The notes under the pieces: model-generated
What the model was told of the DNA's origin: nothing
The model's database searches: none
Seen by the model: the letters and a program-made list of their open reading frames with translations, nothing else
Assembly (NCBI GenBank): GCA_016871355.1
Contig: VFZC01000014.1
Span: 1-61,528 of the forward strand
Direction: 5' to 3'
Origin: Actinomycetota bacterium
GTDB lineage: Bacteria > Actinomycetota > Acidimicrobiia > Acidimicrobiales > Ilumatobacteraceae
DNA length: 61,528 bases
Made by a program: the position numbers and the translations under genes
In this document: one piece after another, positions 2,917 to 43,593 of the stretch
How positions within the stretch are numbered: position 1 is the stretch's first letter
Layout of the letters: the number at the start of each line of letters is the position of its first letter

Positions 2917-3699
2917 ATGTCGGCACTACACATCGAGCGGCAGGGTCACGTCGTGGTTCTTTCGAACACTGACGCGCCGCGCAACCGGATGACCTTCGAG
3001 TACATGGACGAGCTCGAGGTCGCCGTGACCGACCTGCGTCACGATCCTGACGTTCGGGCTGTCGTGCTCACTGCATCGGGTAACGAGCATTTCTCGGTGG
3101 GTATGGACCTCAAGCAGCTCACATCGGGTGCCGCGGCGCGAGGTGGGTTCGAGGCGGTGCTCGACCAACGGCTACGGGTTCTGGAGATGATCGAGCAACT
3201 CGACAAGCCGGTGGTGGTCACCATGTTCGGCTACTGCCTGGGTGGCGGTCTCGAACTCCCACTCGCGTGCCACTTCCGGCTCGCCGCCACGGAGGGTGCC
3301 CGCATCGGCCTCCCGGAGCTCGACCTCGGCACGGTGCCCGCGTGGGGAGGAACGGCGCGGCTCACTCGCACCGTCGGACGTGCGCAGGCCCTCGACATGA
3401 TCCTGCGCGCGAGGAAGATCGACGGGCCGACCGCGCTGGCGATTGGCCTCGTCCATGAACTGCACCCCGTCGCCGAACTGAAACAACGAGCCGTCGAGCT
3501 CGCTCACGAACTTGCTGCACAACCGCCGATCGCCGTGGCAGGTGTGCTGAAGGCAGTCGTCGGTGCCGAACACGCGTCCCTCGAGGATGCGCTCCGCATC
3601 GAGCGCGAGGCGGTCCGGCGATGCAGTGGAACGGCCGACCAGCGCGAAGGGATGCGGGCGTTCCTCGAAAAGCGTCGTCCGAACTTCGAAGGTCGCTGA
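2917..3699 (+). CDS. Enoyl-CoA hydratase/isomerase family protein
   Basis: Crotonase-fold protein of 260 residues, expected to act on an acyl-CoA in fatty-acid or related beta-oxidation. Family marks are the N-terminal strand HVVVLSNTDAPRN, the oxyanion-hole region HFSVGMDLKQL, GYCLGGGLELPLACHFRLA and the PELDLGTVPAWGGTARLTR segment. The Glu of PELDLG sits where the hydratase catalytic acid is found. The ATG at 2917 is preferred because a TACCGT -10 box (2903-2908) lies 8 nt upstream, which fits a leaderless transcript; a GTG at 2911 is in frame. Precise substrate is unknown. Confidence 0.9.
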   Translation: MSALHIERQGHVVVLSNTDAPRNRMTFEYMDELEVAVTDLRHDPDVRAVVLTASGNEHFSVGMDLKQLTSGAAARGGFEAVLDQRLRVLEMIEQLDKPVVVTMFGYCLGGGLELPLACHFRLAATEGARIGLPELDLGTVPAWGGTARLTRTVGRAQALDMILRARKIDGPTALAIGLVHELHPVAELKQRAVELAHELAAQPPIAVAGVLKAVVGAEHASLEDALRIEREAVRRCSGTADQREGMRAFLEKRRPNFEGR

Positions 3700-42544: not shown

Positions 42545-43063
42545 ATGAGACCGATGTCGTCGGGTCGCAGTTCGTTGGTCGTCCCGGCCGTGGCCTCGGT
42601 GTGGATCATCTGGGGTTCCACGTACTTGGGCATCGAGATCGGGCTCGAGACGCTGCCACCGTTCTTCATGCAGGGTTCGCGGTTCGTGCTGGCCTCGGTG
42701 CTCGTGCTGGCCTGGTTGAAGTGGCGTGGCACGCCGTGGCCGACCTGGCGACAAACCCGCAACGCGTCGGTCATCGGCGACATGTTGCTCATCGGTGGTC
42801 TGGGGCTCGTGGCGCTGGCCGTTCTCTACCTGGTGACGTTCGGCTCGATCATCGCCTTCACCGCCTTCACGTATCTGATCGCCACCGTTCGACCTCCGTT
42901 GGCCATGAGTCACGCGTACGTGAATCCACTGATTGCGGTGGTGCTCGGCGTGTTGTTCGCCGACGAATCGGTGTCGAGCAACATGGCCGTGGCGCTCCCG
43001 GTGATCTTGGTTGGGGTCGCGATCGTCACCAACGCGTCCCGGTTGGTACAGTCGGACACGTGA
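42545..43063 (+). pseudogene. EamA/DMT-family transporter with a large internal deletion
   Basis: 172 residues where about 290-300 are expected. The first part (WGSTYLGIEIGLETLPPFF, GSRFVLASVLVLAWLKW) matches the N-terminus of YedA-type drug/metabolite transporters. After IGGLGLVALA (codon end near 42820) it jumps in frame to VLYLVTFGSIIAFTAFTYL and SHAYVNPLIAVVLGVLFADES, which belong near the end of the second EamA repeat. So about 120 residues are missing and the product would have about five instead of ten helices. Reading frame and codon use remain intact. It could be decaying, or a minimal half-size transporter. Its stop overlaps the GTG of the selenoprotein gene (GTGA). Confidence 0.75.
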
Positions 43064-43593
43064 AGCGGTTCGCAGTTCTGGTGTGCCTCACAGCGATGGC
43101 GGTGTCGTGCGGCGGCGAGAGTGCCGACGCGCCGGCCGTCGCCGTCGAGCCAACCACGGCCGAATCGAACACGGCCGAACCAAACACAGTCGAATCAATC
43201 GCGCCAGCGTCGGCGCCCGCGGCCCCGGCGGGTCTCGTGTCGCGAGACGATGTGGTGATCACGGCGCCCACCGTGCTGTGGTTCTGGGCTCCTGGTTGAG
43301 GCAGTTGCAACGCTGAAGCGCCCTCGGTCGAGGCCGCATTCCAACAGTATGGATCACAGGTCCAGTTCGTCGGTGTGGCCTGGGCCGGATCCACCGAGTC
43401 GATGCTCGAGTTCATCGATCGCCACGACCTGTCGTTCGCGAACATCGAGGACAGTGATGGGCAGGTGTTCGGCGAGTACGGCGTGCCGTATCAGCCGGCC
43501 TGGGTGTTCCTCGCGGCTGACGGAACCCTCACGCGCGTGCAGGGCTCGCTCGACGGCGAACGCTTGGCTGAATACATCGCCGAGATCACCTGA
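43060..43593 (+). CDS. Selenocysteine-containing thioredoxin-fold lipoprotein (MPT53/TlpA/DsbE-like), UGSC active site
   Basis: 177 residues if the in-frame TGA at 43297-43299 is read as selenocysteine. A lipoprotein signal with lipobox AVSC (Cys17) is followed by an Ala/Thr/Glu/Pro linker (residues 18-60). The thioredoxin strand VLWFWAPG then leads into Sec80-Gly-Ser-Cys83, and downstream come APSVEAAF, FVGVAWAGSTESMLEFI and the cis-proline segment YGVPYQPAWVF. The downstream frame continues with normal high-GC coding character to TGA 43593. In the Cys homologue MPT53 the site is WCPFC, so Sec replaces the first, attacking Cys. A SECIS-like hairpin follows. It would be an extracytoplasmic disulfide oxidoreductase. 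Without recoding, only a 79-residue fragment without an active site is made. Confidence 0.85.
43318..43337 (+). promoter_or_regulatory. Bacterial SECIS-like hairpin downstream of UGA
   Basis: Stem 43318-43325 with 43330-43337: seven pairs and one C/C mismatch, closing the loop GGUC (43326-43329). 18 nt separate the UGA from the stem and 26 nt from the loop. Bacterial SECIS elements sit in the coding region right after the UGA and have a small apical loop beginning with G residues bound by SelB; E. coli fdhF has GGUCU. Confidence 0.75.

Follow-up and report, generated by a model that had tools for sequence, protein, structure and literature searches.

An in-frame UGA conserved among relatives points to a probably exported MPT53/TlpA-like selenoprotein in an acidimicrobial actinobacterium

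Does a TGA that falls at the catalytic position of a thioredoxin-like gene end the protein, or is it read as selenocysteine (Sec)? The question is raised by a locus in the 61,528-nucleotide stretch of DNA analysed here (the window), which is the whole of contig C14 of an Ilumatobacteraceae assembly of 2.2 Mb (85.83% complete, 0.59% contaminated). Direct reading confirmed that a frame opening at GTG 43060 is broken at TGA 43297–43299 and resumes in the same frame until a stop TGA at 43591–43593; the original prediction had counted 98 further codons, and this continuation is real, but the figure includes the stop and the sense codons number 97. With the first TGA taken as Sec at codon 80, the gene (43060–43593, forward strand) would encode 177 residues, in a frame common to its homologues. 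The flanks also read as described, with VLWFWAPG before the UGA, GSCNAEAPSVEAAF after it and then YGVPYQPAWVF. We consider it highly probable that the product is a thiol-disulfide oxidoreductase with a thioredoxin fold, of the MPT53/DsbE (TlpA-like) type, that it is exported and probably anchored by a lipid, and that Sec is the nucleophile of its U-G-S-C motif.

The protein begins with a predicted signal peptide (43060–43110, forward strand) ending in what we take, by eye, to be a lipobox (AVS-C17), whose Cys17, 90% or more invariant in the homologue alignment (A3), would carry the lipid. A linker rich in Ala, Pro, Thr, Ser and Glu, with low pLDDT, follows at about residues 18–57 (43111–43230, forward strand) and leads into a thioredoxin-fold domain formed by residues 58–177 (43231–43590, forward strand). 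An AlphaFold run with 27 sequences gave a mean pLDDT of 83 and a pTM of 0.69, and the averages over blocks of ten residues stay at 50–58 through residue 50, rise to 75 over residues 51–60 and reach 91–98 from residue 61 onward. In this model a helix spanning residues 81–97 begins right after residue 80, which would place the redox motif (43297–43308, forward strand; UGA for Sec80 to TGC for Cys83) at the N-terminus of helix 1, as in MPT53/DsbE-type proteins; their CxxC is present here only as UxxC, with Sec for the first Cys. The Pfam domain AhpC-TSA matches at 1.7e-10 when the UGA is read through, in a match that spans the codon, while the part downstream taken separately matches at 8.6e-07 and the part upstream gives no Pfam match. 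Immediately before the gene lies an EamA-type transporter gene (42545–43063, forward strand; Pfam EamA, 1.2e-15), whose stop overlaps the GTG start in the tetranucleotide GTGA at 43060–43063, and because of this 4-nt overlap the two genes may be translationally coupled.

Among known proteins, the best two by fold (Foldseek) are MPT53 (Mt-DsbE, PDB 1lu4) and DsbF (3ios), which match in sequence at E-values of 1.5e-23 and 3.9e-19, respectively, and share with the window protein the thioredoxin fold, the motif WFWxPx[C/U]xxC, a subsequent EAP and a cis-Pro segment QPA. Both carry Cys where the window protein has Sec; in the alignment, U falls on the initial Cys of the MPT53 CxxC, as had been proposed, and a Cys codon stands at the site in 26 of 167 domain hits, so that the locus presents an in-frame UGA aligned with the Cys of homologues, as expected of a selenoprotein gene. 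ResA, StoA and CcmG, also Cys forms, resemble the window protein in fold (ResA ranking after MPT53 and DsbF) and give weak profile matches; no NCBIfam family reaches its cut-off, with ResA (NF002854) at 49.5 against 170 bits and DsbE (TIGR00385) at 26.7 against 123.15 bits.

ResA, StoA and CcmG oxidoreductases pair with CcdA, and the alternative that survives best grants the selenoprotein and differs on redox direction alone: the protein might act mainly as a CcdA-fed reductant (ResA/CcmG-like) or as an envelope peroxidase, not as a disulfide oxidant or isomerase. We give this somewhat less than even chances. ResA is the top-scoring NCBIfam model (4.4e-13, far under its cut-off), the genome has one CcdA-like gene (25.2 bits, slightly short of the cut-off of 27.1) and no VKOR match was found in the assembly, which is 86% complete; however, the CcdA-like gene adjoins a TGA-less paralogue (C3:34858–35304), away from the selenoprotein gene. 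The reading we favour is a surface thiol-disulfide oxidoreductase to which no redox direction is assigned. In such an enzyme, Sec80 would make mixed selenyl-sulfide bonds with envelope substrates and Cys83 would resolve them, the active site cycling between a reduced pair and a U–S bond, and selenium would lower the pKa and guard against irreversible over-oxidation.

Sec decoding calls on selA, selB, selC and selD, and all four, which the original prediction had proposed to look for, were found in the same genome: a tRNA-Sec (65.4 bits, cut-off 47) with the anticodon TCA according to ARAGORN, SelB (292.5 bits, cut-off 242.25) with its winged-helix SelB-wing_3 domain, SelA (2.1e-100) adjoining SelB, and SelD (324.2 bits, cut-off 125). 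SelB carrying Sec-tRNA(UCA) would decode the UGA, recruited by a hairpin with a GGUC loop 18 nt downstream. In a set of 100 genomes, this one included, 97 have a family match and 48 a TGA form, by which we mean a single TGA inside a match scoring at least 75 bits; that this TGA lies at the site was confirmed for the 29 loci that were fetched and for a few others. By limits of 58 bits or more for tRNA-Sec, or the model cut-off for selB, 47 of these 48 genomes carry one or the other, and the remaining one (G058) has a selB fragment of 163.5 bits at a contig end; of the 20 genomes with neither by these limits, G058 alone has the TGA form (Fisher p 8e-6, a value that ignores kinship).

Thirty genomes have a tRNA-Sec but lack a TGA form scoring at least 75 bits; some of them have weaker TGA matches, and other selenoproteins presumably keep the machinery in genomes of this kind. 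G007, from the same genus and 97% complete, has tRNA-Sec and a full-score selB, no TGA form above 75 bits and a single weak family match without TGA; the gene is therefore dispensable, and the genus may have further selenoproteins.

UGA is reassigned in some bacterial lineages, and in this one it might accordingly be read as an ordinary amino acid (Trp or Arg), without selenium. This we judge very improbable, since the selenoprotein gene and its EamA neighbour both terminate with TGA, the Sec machinery is present and goes with the TGA forms across genomes, and the homologous residue is a catalytic Cys.

Retention of the codon was followed in two sets of loci that overlap in part, some assemblies being common to both. 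Among 30 fetched loci, including that of the window, the site codon is TGA in 29 and TGC in one; a scan of named records confirmed 124 relatives, and of the best 80 of these 124, 79 have TGA at the site and one has TGC. Downstream of the UGA, comparison with the two nearest relatives gave 17 synonymous and 5 non-synonymous changes, and 26 and 7, respectively, while the more distant L024 differs by 35 synonymous and 56 non-synonymous changes (0.545 and 0.268 per site). By this retention and these counts, the TGA at the site is more than a chance occurrence.

The named-record loci were found with peptide patterns; one of them, L166 (match 3001–3537), was missed by the motif, and its site codon was taken from a separate comparison. 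It keeps the TGA, but Phe stands where the second Cys is expected (UxxF); either an error or altered chemistry may explain this. By their titles, 78 of the best 80 of 124 records are Actinomycetota, one (L102) is only ‘bacterium’ and one (L146) is Acidobacteria. In 14 of the 80 (L101, L104 and L105 among them), isolate-species titles (Bifidobacterium breve, Ferrithrix thermotolerans, Acidimicrobium ferrooxidans) stand on metagenome-assembled loci that group with Ilumatobacteraceae-like ones, and these titles are probably wrong. A blastn search of plasmid records gave no match.

The hairpin that had been proposed, with a GGUC loop and a stem beginning 18 nt past the UGA, is present in the sequence at 43318–43337 (forward strand) as GCG-C-CCTC-GGTC-GAGG-C-CGC, that is, 3 bp, a 1x1 C.C mismatch, 4 bp and a tetraloop at 43326–43329, 26 nt after the UGA. 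Bacterial SECIS elements are hairpins just downstream of the UGA with a G in the apical loop, and both features are seen here. Its conservation is upheld by consensus folding, covariation and codon use. Given 29 segments, each 60 nt long, with the Cys locus L044 set aside, RNAalifold returned the same hairpin as its consensus without prompting. In the covariation test (26 distinct rows, 182 cells, 500 shuffles), 98.4% of the cells are paired against 91.7% in shuffles; 10 cells are changed on both sides against 1.5, a count reached by 0 of 500 shuffles, as is the covariation score of 0.225 (0.086 in shuffles), and 2 pairs are changed on both sides against 0.8, which 9 of 500 shuffles reach. Pair 30–45 occurs as CG in 16 rows, as AU, GC and UA in 3 each and otherwise in 1, and pair 33–42 as CG in 25 and UA in 1. 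Against the hairpin, the count of further pair types is unremarkable, since 215 of 500 shuffles reach it. Sliding the 3′ side of the stem leaves 27–58% of cells paired; a slide of +3 columns raises the pairs changed on both sides from 2 to 3, yet these changes involve 4 cells instead of 10, and the paired share is then 56.6%.

In a wider set, GGTC stands at the same place in 91 of 103 distinct Sec windows, and in 2 of the 26 Cys-form loci compared. All four pairs of the inner stem form in 86 of the 91 GGTC windows (80 of them CCTC/GAGG, the others CCGC/GCGG or CTTC/GAAG), and the outer stem is looser, pair 28–47 forming in 69 and pair 30–45 in 76. The hairpin's codons for Ser89-Val90-Glu91 are TCG GTC GAG in 79 of 79 TGA loci, without a single synonymous difference, and all 50 loci that have Pro at residue 88 write it CCC. 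At eleven other conserved positions with codon choice the codon entropy is 0.87–1.85 bits, Gly105, Val106, Ala107 and Gly110 ranging from 1.39 to 1.85 bits. An invariant TCG GTC GAG, where other conserved residues vary their codons, is the kind of constraint on nucleotides that a SECIS element should impose, and it is a stronger sign of one than the covariation counts; since the loci were found by peptide patterns, the search itself, as far as can be told, did not produce the invariance.

A single base separates UGA from TGC and TGT, and Cys forms exist in the family, but a pseudogene or a sequencing error, with a Cys codon turned to nonsense in an otherwise intact gene, is extremely improbable in view of the TGA in 79 of the best 80 of 124 named-record homologues, the synonymous excess downstream relative to the two nearest relatives and the constraint on the hairpin. 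The conserved TGA, the Sec machinery and the hairpin constraint thus give strong support to the selenoprotein reading of this MPT53/TlpA-like gene.

A covariance model of the UGA-hairpin region, run on the genome, found the window site at 4.8e-18 (a member of the training set) and its next match at 0.28. A loose selenoprotein pattern hit 278 places, against 46 in a reversed control, and by eye no convincing second selenoprotein was seen among L052, L053 and L059–L088, a small part of the 278. Nor was a Sec-type formate dehydrogenase seen in the assembled part of the genome, where five molybdopterin-domain hits lie in open frames of 756–1132 codons with no in-frame stop in the matched stretch. 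The EamA gene before and a Rieske oxygenase gene after the selenoprotein gene recur in about 10–13 loci, and upstream clusters in 34–43 loci resemble, by eye, dihydrolipoyl acyltransferase and dihydrolipoamide dehydrogenase; many neighbourhood clusters are shadow reading frames, and we draw no function from the neighbourhood.

Across the phylum, 64 of 396 genomes match at 1e-20, with TGA forms outside the order in the families coded f53, f55, f70, f77, f82, f84 and f95 and Cys forms in f69, whose genomes are taken to be mycobacterial. In f55, four loci retain the GGTC loop on a stem with compensating changes (CCGC/GCGG), unlike a fifth (L198). In f70, f77 and f84, loci (L182, L186, L187, L188, L210, L211 and L212) have another candidate hairpin, CGGGAGGCTCCCG or near it, closer to the UGA, and use the same Sec site as the window's GGTC-hairpin clade. 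From the 167 domain hits, a tree of 92 rows (72 Sec, 20 Cys) was built after short rows and same-state rows more than 85% identical had been dropped. Taken as unrooted, it needs 4 Sec/Cys changes, at least 3 of them forced by starred branches, against a shuffled mean of 18.3; few columns underlie it and several deep forks are weak. The window's clade in this tree comprises 52 rows, of which 51 are Sec and one is Cys, with support 100/97.

Two further observations concern other loci. L204 (about 1419, reverse strand) and L222 (1340 and 3058) form a separate deep thioredoxin-like branch with WFWAPHUPxC, also written with TGA and followed by a possible hairpin TCGAGC...GCTCGA. In one genome (G039:C154:60463–61725), a Cys and a Sec copy of the family (L044 and L173) are adjacent, the Cys copy being without the GGTC hairpin sequence.

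That these forms reflect a phylum-wide radiation of exported MPT53-type selenoproteins, with the window's clade nearly all Sec, the mycobacterial MPT53 (Cys) placed among Sec clades and the SECIS element shifted between clades at a fixed Sec codon, is a tentative proposal to which we give nearly even chances.

The original prediction had called the protein a likely new selenoprotein. It is a new example but not a new kind, because UxxC selenoproteins of the TlpA/thioredoxin-like type are already in print. A 2026 review (PMC13188914) counts 119 prokaryotic selenoprotein families and subfamilies, and its Table 1 includes a ‘Thiol-disulfide isomerase-like protein’ (cd02966, UxxC), traceable to four Sargasso Sea sequences of 2005 (PMC1088965), and a ‘Redoxin family protein’ (UxxC); a Trx-like 1 family with UxxC is given in PMC2398784. 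The cd02966 and Redoxin proteins are like the window protein in having Sec first in the UxxC of a TlpA/redoxin-type domain; the descriptions compared name no Acidimicrobiales host, lipoprotein or hairpin, and the published families may or may not include the window's clade. In the open-access literature, searched by titles and the openings of abstracts, no such protein is described for Acidimicrobiia or as a relative of MPT53, and word searches on the subject in the accessible text of PMC12013277 and PMC9402790 gave no match. As far as these searches reach, what is new is the actinobacterial clade, its near-complete retention of Sec and the way in which hairpins differ in other clades although the Sec site is the same.

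Gene calling with TGA read as a stop would end the product at residue 79, and the catalytic domain would be lost. Selenoproteins are rarely retained by aerobic bacteria, according to the review (PMC13188914), whereas here, in hosts that are presumably aerobic, one envelope redox site keeps Sec in 79 of the best 80 of 124 homologues. The hairpin differences between clades offer a natural series for following how a SECIS element moves within a coding region under both protein and RNA constraint, and the same series bears on which state is derived, Cys in MPT53 or Sec in the window protein. If the phylum-wide radiation is true, the Cys form seen in MPT53 could have descended from an ancestor with Sec, and many actinobacteria of the environment, probably aerobic ones, would have a standing need of selenium for their envelope redox chemistry.
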